From NCBI GenBank assembly GCA_026874595.1, contig CM049307.1, positions 21,865,079-21,929,078 of the forward strand: a DNA stretch of 64,000 nucleotides, read 5' to 3'. A program made the position numbers and the translations under genes. Under the pieces are notes generated by a model that saw nothing but the letters and a program-made list of their open reading frames with translations, did not search any database and was not told the origin of the DNA. The stretch is from Sipunculus nudus (lineage: Eukaryota; Annelida; Sipuncula; Golfingiida; Sipunculidae). This document shows positions 8,432-20,400 of the stretch, piece by piece (within the stretch, counting starts at the first letter, position 1; every line of letters begins with the position of its first letter).

Positions 8432-11400
8432 GTGAGACTTATAAATCATATAAAACACACAACAACAAAATTAATTTTATTTATAATTAATAATTTCTTG
8501 AAAGAATAATTTATTTCTGATTAATCTTTCAGATTAAACTATTGATATATATATAGCACTGCTCATGGGAGAATGATCTTCATAAAATAAATGACCTTGA
8601 CCTTCAATGACTTACTTTGTTAAACATCAGATCCAGTATCCATGAGTCCGCAGAAGGCCATGGAAACAGTGGGGTCCAACCTACAAAGGCAGTATGAGAG
8701 ATGGCAGCCAAGAGCGAGGTACAAACAGAGCTTAGACCCCACAGTCGATGAAGTGAAAAAGCTGTGTACATCACTCAGAAGAAATGCTAAGGTATACCAA
8801 CCTTCACAGATTTAGTTGTTCTCCATTTTATGTCACAATAAGCAGTCAGAATACATAAAAATGCAGGTAGCATATATATATGTATGAGTCATTCATTTAT
8901 TCAGTTGAATAATACAGACCCATTTCTTGTCTTTTAAAAGCTAGCTGGAGATATTACATGGGTTTAAATTACTGTCCTACTGGGCATTTTTTCATGCACA
9001 ATATTTGTTTATGTACTGTGCCATAATGTACAGAAGGGATAAAAGGCTTCTTGTCTTTGGAGAAAAGGTAGAATGAAGTGGCAGGATATACATATTATAT
9101 CTGAGAGATAATTGCAAAGGAAAACTAAATATATGGAATCCCAGTTTCTTTGTCTTGTCAACTTTTGTGTCAAATATGAGGTCAAACCGTGTGCCCTTAT
9201 AAAAATGTAGCATTGTCTATTGGAGGTTGACACCAGTGCCAGTAGGTCACATCAGTGGATGATCAGCTTCTCTATTTGCAGGAGGAACGAGTTCTCTTTC
9301 ACTACAATGGCCATGGGGTACCCAGACCTACTGTCAACGGTGAGATCTGGGTATTTAATAAGGTATGTTTTCATAATAGCAGATCAGAGCATTTGTTGTG
9401 CCAACCTCAATTTATGATACAATTTTTGTAGCCAATGATATGCAACTGGGTGGGAAGTCAGTAATTTTGAGTGTTCTGTTTATATATATTGTGTTCCAGA
9501 ACAGTGTACCTTCATACCACCTTGCAGGAAGAACAGATTGCAATCATTACACATCTGTTCCATGTTTAATGATGTAAAAGCTCATAGGTCTTTATGAAGC
9601 TTTCCCCTTTAGACGTGGTAAATTTGAATGCCCAATTAAATTTTCTGGTTAGCTTTTGTATAAGAAATGACATGAAACATGAAGAAGATATCATCTAACT
9701 AGCATGTCATGTATAAAAATAGATGGATCAAGTCAATATGTTTCATCAGGCTTCTGTGGTGTAGGGGGAAGAGCACATGACTCAAAGCTGGGAGGTAGTG
9801 AGTTTGAATCTCAGCCAAGGTGGTGAAATTTTTCACGGCTAGCCCCACCTAGGGTGAGGCTTTAAGGGGAGGCCATGCCCCACAGCAGAGTTTCACTCAC
9901 AAACAGGCATATATATCAGTTATGATCCTGCAACAGGGACTGCTGCACACCCATAGCCCGTAGTTGGTTAACCATGCCTGGTTAAGACTAGGATATAAAA
10001 TGAGACAAAGCGTGTGCTACAGCCCTGTTATGTCATCCAAAACTGAAATGGAATTCTGCAGATGTGCATACTTTGTTAAAGCTAGCAAAAAAAATGGAGG
10101 CATGTATTTTTATAAAAGTAAAAAATTTATCATCTGGTTTGACTTGAATGACAGTGTAATATTTCTTATGTGGCACTGCTTATTATATCCGCCAAAACAG
10201 AGTTTTGCGGATACTATGTTTTCAGCTGCAAGCCGCCGCCGCCGCCGCGGCATAGGTGTCCGGAGAACTCCTCCGTAACCGCTGGGTGGAATTTTACGAA
10301 AACCGGGATTATGTTCGGGTCACATGTGAACTGCTGCGCCCCGATTTTGTTTTGACCTCTGACCTTCCCTCTGCGCTCTGCGTCTGTTTGTGCGTCTGTT
10401 TCCACACATAAACCCACATATCTCGGGAACGGTATGACCGATCAGGAAAATTTTTTTGCACAAATGTAGCCCTTGGAGAGCTTTATAACATACACAAAAA
10501 ATGGTGGCACCACCTGCAACCATGTTTGCACAGTGTCAATCTGTTCGTCTGCCTTGGGTTAAAATCACTCATATCTCTGCAGGGACTAGACTAATTCACC
10601 TGAAATTCGGCATGCGTAAACATCCTGGATAGCTTTTCTGATTTTATGACAGGTGGCGCCACCTACATTCACGTTTTCGCTGCAGACATCCAAGCTCATA
10701 TCTCAGGAACCGTTTGACAGATCAGGAAAATTTTTTTGCACAAATGTAGCCCTTGGAGAGCTTTATAACTTACACAAAAAATGGTGGCGCCACCTGCAAC
10801 CATGTTTGCACAATGTCCATCTGTTCATCTGCCTTGGGTTAAAATCACTCATATCTCTGCAGTGACTTGACTAATTCACCTGAAATTCGGCATGCCTATA
10901 CATCCTGGATAGCTTTTCTGATTTTATGACAGGTGGCGCCACCTACATTCACGTTTACTCTGCAGACATCCAAGCTCATATCTCGGGAACCCTTTGACCG
11001 ATTGGGCCAAAATTTTGCATGTGTATAGATCTCACATAGCTCTTCATCATACGCAAAACTGGTGGTGCCACCTGCAGCCATTTTTGCACAGCTCCTGTCT
11101 GTTTGTCGGCCATGGGATAGAATCACTCATATACATGTAGTGGTTTGACTTATCTGCCTTAAATTTTGCATATGTATACAACTTGGACGGCTTTCTGGAT
11201 TTTGTGGTAGGGTGGGCAACCTACATACACAATTTGGCTGCAGACATCCATGCTAATATGCAACACTCTATTTCCCCTTGCCACTCAATCCATGCCTCAC
11301 TTCACCCGTTCCACTCTGATTTAGGCGGATACACGTAGTCGCTTGTCGACTACCCGTATTCTAGTTTCACATGTTGAATGCCGACTTATTTTTTGCTGTG

Positions 11401-14400
11401 GGTTTCCTCAGTGTTCCTGACATTGTAAATTGTTACAAGCAGTACTGCGTCATCTTTTTTTTAAAATATACAATGATACTTTTAAATTATAATATGATAT
11501 ATAAGAAATTTTATCTTTTAAGAATGTTAAAATGATTGAAATTTTGTAATTATTAACCTTTCTGTAGAACTTATGGATTATTCAGGAACTGATTACCAAT
11601 TTAATAATAAGATCTTACCTGTTGTTTCCAGAGCTACACACAGTATATACCTCTGTCAGTGTACGACTTGCAGACTTGGATGTACAGTCCATCTATCTAT
11701 GTGTATGACTGCAGCAATGCTGGGATCATTGTGGAATCATTTAAACAGTTCCAGAATCAAAGAGAGCAAGATATGGAGGTATGTACTCATTTATGAAAAA
11801 CTTCTTAAGGGTTCTAAAACTCCAAAGTTTTTTATGTTTCCTGCAAGCAATAAATATTTGGCCAGCCATTTTGTGTTAAATAGTTTGTAATTAGAGGTAT
11901 TTTTTCACTGAATGCAGTTTTAAGTTGTTGGTTATCCAATTGAATTTATTATGATGTAGCACCAAGAAAACTGGAGAAAATTTTTTGATAATTTTAGAAA
12001 CAGTATAAAGAGTACTTCAGATTTTTAATTAAAAGAATATTTAATTATTTTTATTTGTTTAATTTTTTTGATTTTGTGCTGTAATTGAACTGTGTAGGCT
12101 GGGTTATTGACTTCTTGTTTGTTGCACAAGGTTCAGTTTTCAATGCTTTTTGCAGTTTTATACCAAGTTTATCTATCTCTTTCAGATATAGAATATTTCA
12201 TCTGGATAATATTTACCTCTTTAGTTATGCGTACAAAATTTTTGTGATCTGTTATGCAAATATGCAACCAAGAAAGAAAACAATCAATCATTGAGATTAT
12301 AGATTAATTGGCACACCACTAATTGTATCCGCCAAAACAGAGTTTTGCGGATACTATGTTTTCAGCTGGCCGCCGCCGCCGCCGCGTAGGTGTCCGGAGA
12401 ACTCCTCCGTAACCGCTGGGCGGAATTTTCCGAAACCCGGGATTATGTTCGGGTCACATGTGAACTGCTGCGCCCCGATTTTGTTTTGACCTCTGACCTT
12501 TCCTTTGCGCTCTGCGTCCGTTTGTGCGTCTGTTTCCACACATAAACCCACATATCTCGGGAACCGTTTGACCGATCAGGAAAATTTTTTTGCACAAATG
12601 TAGCCCTCGGAGAGCTTTATAACATAACATGTCCACCTGTTCGTCTGCCTTGGGTTAAAATCACTGATATCTCTGCAGTGACTTGACTAATTCACCTGAA
12701 ATTGGGCATGCGTATATATCCTGGATAGCTTTTCTGATTTTATGACAGGTGGTGCTACCTACATTCACGTTTACGCTGCAGACATCAAAGCTCATATCTC
12801 GGGAACCGTTTGACCGATCAGGAAAATTCTTTCGCACAAATGTAGCCCTTGGAGAGCTTTATAACATACACCAAAAATGGTGGCGCTACCTGCAACCATG
12901 TTTGCACAGTGTCCATCTGTTCGTCTGCCTTGGGTTAAAATCACTCCTATTTCTGCAGTGGTTTGACTAATTCACCTGAAATTCGGCATGCTTATACATC
13001 CTGGATAGCTTTTCTGATTTTATGACAGGTGGCAGACATCCAAGCTCATATCTAGGGAACCGTTTGACCGATTGGGCCAAAATTTTGCATGTGTATAAAT
13101 CTCACATAGCTCTTTATCATAGGCAAAACTGGTGGCGCCACCTGCAGCCATGTTTGCACAGCTCCCATCTGTTTGTCTGCCATGGGATAAAATCACTCAT
13201 ATCTCGGCAGTGGTTTGACATATCTGCCTAAAATTTTGCAAGTTTATACATCCCCGACAGCTCTCTTGATTTTATGACAGGTGGCGCCACCTGCATTCTA
13301 GTTTATGCAGCAGATATCCAAGCTCATATCTTGGGAACCGTTTGACCAATTGGGCCAAAGTTTTGCATGTGTATAGAGCTTTCTGGATTTTTTGGTAGGT
13401 AGCGCAACCTACATACACAATTTGGCTGCAGACATCCATGCTAATATGCAACACTTCACCCGTTTCACTCTGATTTAGGCGGATACAAGTAGTCGCTTGT
13501 CGACTACCCGTATTCTAGTTAATTGTATTTTTATTTGCAGGTGGGATCAGGGTTAAGCAACAGTTCCAGGTCTACAGGGTCCCCATCCTCTCCCACCCCA
13601 ACTACTGTTAAGAACTGTATCCAGCTGGCAGCTTGTGGACCCAGTGAGCTCCTGCCCATGAACCCGGAGCTCCCTGCAGATCTCTTCACCTGCTGTCTTA
13701 CCACACCCATCAAGATTGCACTAAAGTGGTAAGGGCAATGGTTAATGTTAATATGAATAGTGTCTTTCTGGGGAAGATCTATGTAGTGTTTCAGAATTGC
13801 ATTAAAGTGGTAAGGGCACCTGTTATTGGAAATAAGGTGAATTGTATCGCTCTTGGGAAGATATATGTAGTGTATCAAGATTGCATTAAAGTGGTAAGGG
13901 CACCTGTTATTGGAAATAAGGTGAATTGTATCCCTCTGGGGAAGATATATGTAGTGTTTCAGGATTGCATTAAAGTGGTAAGGGCACCTGTTATTGGAAA
14001 TAAGGTGAACTGTATCGCTCGGGGGAAGATATATGTAGTGTATCAAGATTGCATTAAATGGTAAGGGCCCCTGTTATTGGAAATAAGGTGAATTGTATCG
14101 CTCTGGGGAATATATCTGTAGTGTTTCAGGATTGCATTAAAGTGGTAAGGGCTCCTGTTATTGGAAATAAGGTGAATTGTATCGCTCTGGGGAAGATATA
14201 TGTAGTGTATCAAGATTGCATTAAAGTGGTAAGGGCACCTGTTATTGGAAATAAGGTGAATTGTATCGCTCTGGGGAAGATATTTGTAGTGTATCAAGAT
14301 TGCATTAAAGTGGTAAGGGCACCCGTTATTGGAAATAAGGTGAATTGTATCGATCTGGGGAAGATATATGTAGTGTTTCAGGATTGCATTAAAGTGGTAA

Positions 14401-17400
14401 GGGCTCCTGTTATTGGAAATAAGGTGAATTGTATCACTCTGGGGAAGATATATGTAGTGTTTCAGGATTGCATTAAAGTGGTAAGGGCACCTGTTATTGG
14501 AAATAAGGTAATTGTATCGCTCTGGGGAAGATATTTGTAGTGTATCAAGATTGCATTAAAGTGGTAAGGGCACCTGTTATTGGAAATAAGGTGAATTGTA
14601 TCACTCTGGGGAAGATATATGTAGTGTTTCAGGATCGCATTAAAGTGGTAAGGGCACCTGTTATTGGAAATAAGGTAATTGTATCACTCTGGGGAAGATA
14701 TATGTAGTGTTTCAAGATTGCATTAAAGTGGTAAGGGCACCTGTTATTGGAAATAAGGTAATTGTATCGCTCTGGGGAAGATATATGTAGTGTATCAAGA
14801 TTGCATTAAAGTGGTAAGGGCACCTGTTATTGGAAATAAGGTGAATTGTATCACTCTGGGGAAGATATATGTAGTGTTTCAGGATTGCATAAAAGTGGTA
14901 AGGGCACCTGTTATTGGAAATAAGGTAATTGTATCCCTCTAGGGAAGATATATGTAGTGTATCAAGATTGCATTAAAGTGGTAAGGGCACCTGTTATTGG
15001 AAATAAGGTGAATTGTATCGCTCTGGGGAAGATATATGTAGTGTTTCAGGATTGCATTAAAGTGGCAAGGGCACCTGTTATTGGAAATAAGGTGAACTGT
15101 ATGGCTCTGGGGAAGATATATGTAGTGTTTCAGGATTGCATTAAATTGGTAAGGGCATCTGTTATTGGAAATAAGGTGAATTGTATCCCTCTGGGGAAGA
15201 TATATGTAGTGTATCAAGATTGCATTAAAGTTTTAAGGGCACCTGTTATTGGAAATAAGGTGAATTGTATCACTCTGGGAAAGATGTATGTAGTGTTTCA
15301 GGATTGCATTAAAGTGGTAAGGTCACCTGTTATCAGAAATAAGGTGAATTGTATCGCTCTAGGGAAGATATATGTAGTGTATCAAGATTGCATGAAAGTG
15401 GTAAGGGCACCTGTTATTGGAAGTAAGGTGAACTGTATCGCTCGGGGGAAGATATATGTAGTGTATCAAGATTGCATTAAAGTGGTAAGGGCCCCTGTTA
15501 TTGGAAATAAGGTGAATTGTATCGCTCTGGGGAATATATCTGTAGTGTTTCAGGATTGCATTTAAGTGGTAAGGGCTCCTGTTATTGGAAATAAGGTGAA
15601 TTGTATCGCTCTAGGGAAGATATATGTAGTGTTTCAGGATTGCATGAAAGTGGTAAGGGCACCTGTTATTGGAAATAAGGTGAATTGTATCGCTCTGGGG
15701 AAGATATATGTAGTGTATCAAGATTGCATTAAAGTGGTAAGGGCACCTGTTATTGGAAATAAGGTGAATTGTATCGCTCTGGGGAAGATATATGTAGTGT
15801 TTCAGGATTGCATTAAATTGGTAAGGGCACCTGTTATTGGAAATAAGGTGAATTGTATCGCTCTGTGGGAGGTATATGTAGTGTATCAAGATAGCATTAA
15901 AGTGGAAAGGGCACCTGTTATTGGAAATAAGGTGAATTGTATCACTCTGGGGAAGATATATGTAGTGTTTCAGGATTGCATTAAGTGGTAAGGGCACCTG
16001 TTATTGGAAATAAGGTGAATTGTATCGCTCTGGGGAAGATATATGTATTGTATCAAGATTGCATTTAAGTGGTAAGGGCACCTGTTATTGGAAATAAGGT
16101 GAATTGTATCACTCTGGGGAAGATATATGTAGTGTTTCAGGATTGCATTAAAGTGGCAGGGCACCTGTTATTGGAAATAAGGTGAACTGTATGGCTCTGG
16201 GGAAGATATATGTAGTGTTTCAGGATTGCATTAAATTGGTAAGGGCACCTGTTATTGGAAATAAGGTGAATTGTATCGCTCTGGGGAAGATATATGTAGT
16301 GTATCAAGATTGCATTAAAGTGGTACGGGCACCTGTTATTGGAAATAAGGTGAATTGTATCACTCTGGGAAAGATATATGTAGTGTTTCAGGATTGCATT
16401 AAAGTGGTAAGGTCACCTGTTATCGGAAATAAGGTGAATTGTATCGCTCTGGGGAAGATATATGTAGTGTATCAAGATTGCATTAAAGTGGTAAGGGCAC
16501 CTGTTATTGGAAATAAGGTCAATTGTATCGCTCTGGGGAAGATATATGTAGTGTTTCAGGATTGCATTAAAGTGGTAAGGGCACCTGTTATTGGAAATAA
16601 GGTGAATTGTATCGCTCTTGGGAAGATATATGTAGTGTATCAAGATTGCATTAAAGTGGTAAGGGCACCTGTTATTGGAAATAAGGTGAATTGTATCCCT
16701 CTGGGGAAGATATATGTAGTGTTTCAGGATTGCATTAAAGTGGTAAGGGCACCTGTTTTTGGAAATAAGGTGAACTGTATCGCTCGGGGGAAGATATATG
16801 TAGTGTATCAAGATTGCATTAAAGTGGTAAGGGCCCCTGTTATTGGAAATAAGGTGAATTGTATCGCTCTTGGGAATATATCTGTTGTGTTTCAGGATTG
16901 CATTAAAGTGGTAAGGGCTCCTGTTATTGGAAATAAGGTGAATTGTATCGCTCTAGGGAAGATATATTTAGTGTTTCAGGATTGCATTAAAGTGGTAAGG
17001 GCACCTGTTATTGGAAATAAGGTGAATTGTATCGCTCTTGGGAAGATATATGTAGTGTATCAAGATTGCATTAAAGTGGTAAGGGCACCTGTTATTGGAA
17101 ATAAGGTGAATTGTATCACTCTGGGGAAGATATATGTAGTGTATCAAGATTGCATTAAAGTGGTAAGGGCACCTGTTATTGGAAATAAGGTGAATTGTAT
17201 CACTCTGGGGAAGATATATGTAGTGTTTCAGGATTGCATTAAAGTGGTAAGGTCACCTGTTATCGGAAATAAGGTGAATTGTATCGCTCTGGGGAAGATA
17301 TATGTAGTGTATCAAGATTGCATTAAAGTGGTAAGGGCACCTGTTATTGGAAATAAGGTGAATTGTATCGCTCTGGGGAAGATATATGTAGTGTTTCAGG

Positions 17401-20400
17401 ATTGCATTAAAGTGGTAAGGGCACCTGTTATTGAAAATAAGGTGAATTGTATTGCTCTTGGGAAGATATATGTAGTGTATCAAGATTGCATTAAAGTGGT
17501 AAGGGCACCTGTTATTGGAAATAAGGTGAATTGTATCCCTCTGGGGAAGATATATGTAGTGTTTCAGGATTGCATTAAAGTGGTAAGGGCACCTGTTATT
17601 GGAAATAAGGTGAACTGTATCGCTCGGGGGAAGATATATGTAGTGTATCAAGATTGCATTAAAGTGGTAAGGGCCCCTGTTATTGGAAATAAGGTGAATT
17701 GTATCGCTCTGGGGAATATATCTGTAGTGTTTCAGGATTGCATTAAAGTGGTAAGGGCTCCTGTTATTGGAAATAAGGTGAATTGTATCGCTCTAGGGAA
17801 GATATATGTAGTGTTTCAGGATTGCATTAAAGTGGTAAGGGCACCTGTTATTGGAAATAAGGTGAATTGTATCGCTCTGGGGAAGATATATGTAGTGTAT
17901 CAAGATTGCATTGAAGTGGTAAGGGCACCTGTTATTGGAAATAAAGGTGAATTGTATCGCTCTGGGGAAGATATATGTAGTGTTTCAGGATTGCATTAAA
18001 GTGGTAAGGGCACCTGTTATTGGAAATAAGGTGTATTGTATCGCTCTGGGGAAGATATATGTAGTGTATCAAGATTGCATTAAAGTGGTACGGGCACCTG
18101 TTATTGGAAATAAGGTGAATTGTATCAATCTGGGGAAGATATATGTAGTGTTTCAGGATTGCATTAAAGTGGTAAGGGCACCTGTTATTGGAAATAAGGT
18201 GAATTGTATTGCTCTGGGGAAGATATATGTAGTGTTTCAGGATTGCATTAAAGTGGTAAGGGCACCTGTTATTGGAAATAAGGTGAATTGTATCGCTCTG
18301 GGGAAGATATATGTAGTGTTTCAGGATTGCATTAAAGTGGTAAGGGCACCTGTTATTGGAAATAAGGTGAATTGTATCGTTCTGGGGAAGATATATGTAG
18401 TGTTTCAGGATTGTATTAAAGTGGTAAGGGCACCTGTTATTGGAAAAAAGGTGAATTGTATCGCTCTGGGGAAGATAAATGTAGTTTTTCAGGATTGCAT
18501 TTAAGTGGTAAGGGCTCCTGTCAGTGTGAATAAGGTTAACAGCACCCTCTGGGGATGTTACATGTAGTGGATTAGATGTCCTGAACGTTAAAGTAATTTA
18601 AGTACAATCATCTGAAGCATTCAGTGATGTCAAATCCTTGCTCATTTGCACACTGTACATTCTCATTTATTCACTTTCCAGTTGACCTAACTGTGACTTA
18701 ATGTTGGATTGGCTTTTTAAGCCATTTTGTAGGTGATTGGTAAATTCTCTTTTTGCCAACAACCATTTGTAGGGGTATCCATTTGTGTAGTTAACCCTGC
18801 CTGTCTGCCACTATCTAAGCCAACCTATGTGTCAGTTTTGAATTAAAAGAGACCGGGCATTATTTACAGTGCAGCTGTCATAGACTAAGACTAAGTTTTA
18901 TGTACATTGTAGCAGTATGACTGATTCTTGAGTATTGTCTTGTTGATTTATTACAAAATTAAAATGCTAACACTATCATGCTGTGTCATTCAAGGTATGT
19001 TCTGCAGAATACCTCAAGGTTGGTGCCAGGGATCACTCTGGAAGTAATAGACAAGTAAGTCTATAGTGTTTATTTATCAGATGAAGTATGTGTGGGCTTT
19101 TAAACTTCTACACAAAATTTGGAGCTCATTAGTGATGCAAGTTCATGCAAGGTTTCAAAGTCACAAAAAAATATTCCCTCCTCTTTATTTTCTTGACCAA
19201 TTTTGATTTTGTTTGTCTTAACTGATAGGGCTGTATGTGGGCCTTTAAATTTCTATACAGAATTTTAAAATTAATTAATTATGCAAAGTAATGCACACTT
19301 TCAAAATAAAAAATAAATGTTTTTCTCCTATTTTCAACAAATTATTCAGTTGGTTTTATCAGATGGCTCTAGTTGTGAGCTTTTTAAACTTATACACATT
19401 ATTTTGAACCTGCAGACGGGGCCTGCAGAGATACCAGCTTTCTGTGATGAAAGGTTCATTCCGTGCACCTTGAAAATTGCAAAGCATTATGTTGCAGGTG
19501 TGCTGGGTGGGCACTCTGACATTGAGGTTATGGTTTAATCATTTATTCTTACAGAATACCTGGTCAGTTGAATGACAGGCGCACAATGTTAGGTGAACTC
19601 AACTGGATCTTCACTGCCATTACAGACACTATCGCATGGAATACACTACCTAGAGGTAACTCTTATTTGTTTGTATTTTACAACTGTTGGATAGATATTA
19701 TTTAATTAACACTGTTCTGCTAAGAGGCTTACTAAAGTGCATTTCGAGTTGGCACCTTAGACTCAAAACATAAAACTGAAATAGCTAGTTTCACTGAGGT
19801 CAAACTTATTGCCTATTTGTTTTCAGTTCTAATGATTTCTCTTTACCCTTTCTCTGTAGGAACTGTTGAAATTAAGTAAAGATACAACATTTAAAATATG
19901 TTGCTTATTGTGTCATGAATTTGTGAGGGTAATATTTCAATAAAGGAATATTAAGAATCCAAGAATTCTGATGAAGATAGTCTGATTATTTTCACTTCAT
20001 GTAAAAATTCCTTATTATTTTTCAAATAGGTTTTTATGTACCATGGATAAATGGGAGGAAGGCATTTGTTAACGATTATACTGGTAAAAAATATTTGAAT
20101 TTCATTTTTGTTTCTTTACAGACTTGTTTCAGAAGCTCTTTCGACAAGACCTGCTGGTTGCTAGCTTATTCCGGAACTTTCTGCTGGCAGAAAGAATTAT
20201 GAGGGCATATAACTGTACACCAGTATCTAGTCCAAAGCTGCCCCCAACCTATCAGCACCCAATGTGGTGAGTTCCTCATGTTACTGTGGTTGCTCAAATG
20301 TGACTTGGATTTGTTCTTCCAGGTGGTCTCTCTCTCCATTAACTTTATTTATTATCAATTCATCCTGTAAATTTGTTATTTTTTCATCAGTAAAATTTAC

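Follow-up and report, generated by a model that had tools for sequence, protein, structure and literature searches.

The window analysed in this study, a stretch of 64,000 nucleotides from Sipunculus nudus, contains the gene of Raptor, a protein that is essential in other animals. The assignment, which had been made in an initial annotation of the locus, is borne out by a tblastn alignment of human Raptor, whose exon-wise matches extend between 8.3 and 59.5 kb with the recognised exons open in frame, by the best matches of the predicted protein, which include Raptor of Owenia, nemerteans, bivalves, a chiton and gastropods, and by the Raptor_N domain matches found in the genome, all four of which are exons of this gene. 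Of 8,000 proteins scored in the homologue search, 4,673 reached E ≤ 0.001, and 120 of these are listed. In a quick tree the predicted protein is found beside the sampled molluscs, a placement that points to a lophotrochozoan close to Mollusca. The gene appears to be the sole Raptor gene of the genome. An N-terminal exon gave no convincing match by tblastn or translation in the window, including the region upstream of 8329, and it may either have diverged or be located upstream. In the automatic gene model the exon following the repeat described below is misplaced and another, at about 46.3 kb, is missing, and several of its 3' exon boundaries (about 41.7-46.9 kb) are unreliable.

The features discussed here are located around the exon that was numbered 5 in the initial annotation (Table 1). 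In the gene model this exon is placed between introns of 1,762 and 5,266 nt, and the motif at its end is found in all of the 120 homologues listed. Its authentic donor is of ordinary strength, as 14 of the 24 donors of the model score higher on mammalian frequency tables, which underlie all splice-site scores given here. The start of the next exon was set to 18995 because the resulting junction TG/G TAT GTT CTG CAG encodes WYVLQ, as in lophotrochozoan homologues. The acceptor of this exon has the lowest of the 26 acceptor scores in the gene model, whose acceptors were in part chosen by the same score. Located at 18985-18995, it consists of an AAG site that lacks a clear pyrimidine tract.

Table 1. 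Features of the Raptor locus around the exon-junction repeat (positions in the window; a slash marks a splice junction).
Feature	Position	Strand	Basis or value
Raptor exon (exon 5 of the initial annotation), 188 nt, ending in ...KIALK + TG of a Trp codon	13541..13728	+	tblastn with human Raptor, gene model, homologue motif
Minisatellite, 58 copies of an 84-bp unit of exon end and intron start	13710..18569	+	TRF, segmentation, alignment
TGG TAA stop read if a downstream decoy donor were joined to the next exon	13727..13732	+	translation
Authentic 5' splice site GTG/GTAAGG	13729..13734	+	score 8.7
Intron of 5,266 bp with the array at its start	13729..18994	+	direct reading
57 additional junction copies, with decoy donors from 13810 onwards	13795..18569	+	segmentation, alignment, donor scoring
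Adjacent 10-unit (840-bp) blocks, units 31-40 and 41-50	16224..17903	+	828/840 bases identical
Next Raptor exon, acceptor ttcattcaag/G (AAG acceptor)	18995..19054	+	direct reading; frame and length as in lophotrochozoan homologues

The array was detected by TRF with a period of 84, 58.0 copies, 93% matches and a score of 8346, the top value among the 27 rows reported for the window, and its many head-to-tail units fall into the range of about 10-100 bp that is characteristic of minisatellites. When cut at the junction motif it yields 58 copies at a spacing of 80-85, mostly 84, the first of which is the real exon end and the remaining ones (copies 2-58) are intronic, which agrees with the 57 extra copies counted previously. 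Each unit consists of the last 19 nt of the Raptor (RPTOR) exon followed by about 65 nt of intron. The exon-derived part reads TCAAGATTGCACTAAAGTG in the exon itself and either TCAGGATTGCATTAAAGTG or TCAAGATTGCATTAAAGTG in most array copies, and is followed by GTAAGGGC and further intron sequence. With a repeat start at 13710 and the authentic exon end at 13728, the array begins at the junction, as in a splice-donor minisatellite, and the proposed derivation of the unit from this exon-intron boundary is supported. The genome search gave at least 25 matches, with all 25 located inside the array or at its edge, and dispersed copies elsewhere in the genome were not found in this search, whose match counts are lower bounds. 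No match to a known RNA family was obtained within 13541-19060 at gathering thresholds. Along much of the array (13710-18569), units with TTTCAG endings alternate with others ending in TATCAA (columns 80 and 84), which suggests an earlier dimer unit. A second donor-like site, AAG/GTGAAT (e.g. at 13918-13926), is present in 44 exact copies, with six more ending in C; it directly follows an AG and resembles a zero-length ratchet site for recursive splicing.

Most of the repeated donors have remained intact, as had been noted from the letters. The dinucleotide GT is retained in 53 of the 57 extra copies and lost in four, 51 score at least 8, and the 9-nt donor is identical to the authentic one in 47, a likeness that is a further hallmark of a splice-donor minisatellite. 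On the plus strand, 53 sites in the 4,861-bp array (including the authentic donor) reach at least the score of the authentic donor, compared to 25 in the remaining 59,139 bp, which corresponds to a density about 26-fold that of the rest of the window. Upon intron retention, or if a decoy were joined to the next exon, the translation reads ...KIALKW followed by a stop, in accordance with the termination described initially. The length of about 227 residues given for the truncated product had been counted from the Met of the MKTVS exon and has to be revised. Since the Trp of KIALKW is found at a median position of residue 277 (range 223-384) among the 120 homologues listed, the predicted product of decoy use would comprise about 275 residues. 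With successive donors the exon would measure 188, 269, 353, 437 and 520 nt, and hence remain below 500 nt with the first three decoys only and exceed this length from the fourth on.

We have also considered a role of RNA structure in hiding the decoys, and rejected it: the predictions make 45 of the 51 decoys tested more accessible than the authentic site and speak against structure as a safeguard of correct splicing. The fold of three units has a z-score of -0.80, with 37 of 200 shuffled sequences folding at least as well. With decoys that are locally identical and mostly more accessible than the authentic site, correct donor choice would rest on a positional rule.

If the decoys had a regulatory function, their sequence might be expected to be maintained. 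In a circular-shift test on copies 2-57, whose power is low given that it is based on 56 related units, the donor columns showed no greater conservation than the remaining columns. They contain 0.89 distinct variant states per column compared to 0.67 overall, with 77 of the 84 shifts giving an equally low or lower value, and singleton changes concur (78 of 84 shifts). Their raw variant counts are middling (1.33 compared to 1.95 overall; 43 of 84 shifts). There is thus no sign of maintenance of the decoy donors, as their columns have accumulated no fewer distinct changes than the remainder of the unit. The exon-like 15 nt show low raw counts (1.07; 18 of 84 shifts), but neither their variant states (70 of 84) nor their singletons (82 of 84) are low. 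A weak hint in the other direction is found in the columns of TTTCAG, which carry no singleton change at all, a value matched by six of 84 shifts.

The divergence between units bears on the history of the array. The two copies at its edges differ from the consensus at 16 (copy 1) and 18 (copy 58) of the 84 columns, and the mean for copies 3-57 is 2.9 differences. The interior contains the adjacent 10-unit blocks listed in Table 1; a run of ten matching units was obtained in none of 200 shuffles of the unit order, where the longest run was six, and this 840-bp duplication is the latest visible expansion. Together, the diverged edges, the homogeneous interior and the duplicated block suggest that the first duplications are older and that part of the length was acquired recently. 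Tandem repeats are generally common in this genome. For 20 stretches of 10 kb that were set at round coordinates of C1-C8 rather than drawn at random, TRF reported 121 rows, 17 of which have a period of at least 10 and a length of at least 400 bp, and the five rows of at least 1000 bp represent four distinct arrays with periods of 278, 336, 180/359 and 336. An array that happens to include a junction is therefore not shocking, although so small a sample does not yield a firm rate. Neighbouring introns (10417-11259 and about 12540-13440) contain CATATCTCGGGAACCGTTTGACCGATC-like sequence in units of about 280 bp, and arrays with periods of 276-279, a match by period alone, are also present in three of the sampled stretches (L009, L011 and L013).

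The closest likeness to the Raptor array, and a direct precedent for it, is found in human IFI6 (also 6-16 or G1P3), where a minisatellite provides several splice donors that compare to the candidate donors described here. The splice-donor minisatellite of 6-16 was reportedly described by Turri, Cuin and Porter in 1995 (NAR 23:1854), and its unit is said to be short, with 12 bp in about 26 copies placed at the junction. The Raptor array differs in its 84-bp unit, its 57 extra copies, the presence of acceptor-like sites and the immediate stop that would be read if a decoy were joined. One account of IFI6 names two downstream units of the repeat as donors, from which three mRNA species result (PMC4526556). 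A related case is that of ATP2A1, potato RdRp and the 24-nt repeats of Schizosaccharomyces, where tandem copies likewise bring along splice signals. Introns can span repeat copies, and tandem repeats with splice signals are described as a route to introns in two articles (PMC4974935, PMC3629103), the latter with the reservation that further study is required for one of its two cases. In the Raptor gene, by contrast, the repeat has expanded from a genuine junction within an intron that already existed, and no new intron is shown. Intron gain by tandem duplication would call for a donor and an acceptor in one unit. TTTCAG, a candidate acceptor, is found at 32 sites, 29 of which are followed by GTAAG exactly 15 nt on, but the acceptor scores are low. 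These acceptor-like sites go beyond what had been noticed in the initial annotation. A long intronic minisatellite that alters splicing and decay of its host transcript is reported for VNTR6-1 in intron 6 of TERT, which, in contrast to the Raptor array, works via a G-quadruplex and for whose unit no splice donors are mentioned there (PMC11830802). The Raptor array is best viewed as a larger member of the kind of repeats exemplified by IFI6 and the intron-generating cases. Among the titles listed in the literature searches, none concerns an array in a Raptor intron, and the word RPTOR occurs once in a listed survey of human minisatellites (PMC8096271).

The array is real, and most likely it is a repeat that the gene tolerates and not a device that sets its output. 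We consider it probable that it is a private minisatellite begun at a Raptor junction, that the authentic donor is chosen by its position and that most copies are passengers. Such a repeat would have originated by a tandem duplication across the exon-intron boundary and grown inside the intron by unequal exchange or slippage, in part recently. Since the preceding exon lies between long introns, splicing would proceed by exon definition, where the acceptor of the same exon would be paired by the spliceosome with whichever donor is nearest, here the authentic one, and the whole array would be removed together with the intron. A preference for those alternative sites in large introns that are closest across the exon is described in a study of splice-site choice (PMC9225289). 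With an exon longer than 500 nt from the fourth decoy onward, the later copies are expected to offer little competition. The first few decoys may see some low-level use, which would generate transcripts with TGG-TAA to be removed by nonsense-mediated decay, and most of the 57 copies would be inert. Support for this reading is provided by the anatomy of the array, the lack of another site found in the genome, the confinement of Raptor_N matches to this gene, donor columns that are not depleted of changes, the diverged edges, the 840-bp duplication, the lengths of the exon with successive donors and of the flanking introns, and the two downstream donor units named for IFI6. Against it stands the observation that none of the 32 TTTCAG sites of the array scores below the acceptor that precedes the next exon, a combination of a weak acceptor and better-scoring upstream sites that could favour splicing into the array, and the columns of TTTCAG, devoid of singletons, lean in the same direction.

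The control of Raptor output by array length, as proposed initially, is in our judgement very unlikely. It would require that the decoys compete with the real donor or titrate U1, with the number of copies setting the fraction of intact mRNA. U1 is very abundant, and its titration by the 57 sites of a single pre-mRNA is therefore not to be expected. The abundance of well-preserved donors, the immediate stop resulting from their use and the reported influence of VNTR length on TERT splicing (there via a G-quadruplex) would be in line with competition, but the donor columns are as variable in distinct changes as other columns and not unusually conserved, four of the 57 copies have lost their GT, and with only the first three decoys leaving the exon below 500 nt, extra copies should add little. 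Equally improbable is an assembly artefact that has inflated or collapsed the copy number. Near-identical 84-bp units and a block of 840 bp with 98.6% identity are hard to assemble, and the array was read from one genome assembly, but its units carry an ordered pattern of shared and private changes, and it resides in a contig of 98.5 Mb with no N in the window. The question thus touches the copy number and less so the existence of the array.

The acceptor-like sites invite a further interpretation, in which the repeat serves as a nursery of poison exons or microexons. The spacing of TTTCAG and GTAAG implies that many units are mini exon-intron modules (TTTCAG/15 nt/GTAAGG with a mini-intron of about 69 nt), whose 15-nt exon would insert WIALK in frame, and 26 of the 29 such pieces are open. 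Alternatively, 27 of the TTTCAG sites are followed by GTAAG of the next unit at a distance of 98 (6) or 99 nt (21), and all of these 27 potential pseudo-exons contain an in-frame stop when read after ...TG/. Although the scores relative to the downstream acceptor and the lack of singleton changes in the TTTCAG columns would fit, this interpretation is unlikely. The pyrimidine tract is poor, with the commonest site scoring 4.8, level with the fourth lowest of the 26 model acceptors, and nearly half of the units carry TATCAA in place of TTTCAG. In copies 2-58, the 15-nt piece encodes WIALK in 44 of 57 cases and is altered in 13 by stops (4), frameshifts (2) or substitutions, and a repeated IAL.W-IAL.W motif is found in none of the 120 homologues listed (of 4,673), among which the source species was not recognised. 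It is slightly more doubtful still that the array acts as a chain of mini exons and introns in front of a weak acceptor into which some Raptor transcripts would be spliced, with a composition that tunes output and differs between individuals.

Collectively, the tolerated repeat that we favour offers a natural experiment on the choice of 5' splice sites, in which a single genuine donor precedes 47 perfect and 10 imperfect copies. Should splicing always take the first donor, the locus would provide a measure of how strongly position overrides the sequence of a site. If decoys are used, a fast-changing repeat would be linked to growth signalling, and if the units act as mini exon-intron modules, the composition of the array would tune the output of Raptor, the scaffold of mTORC1, and vary between individuals.
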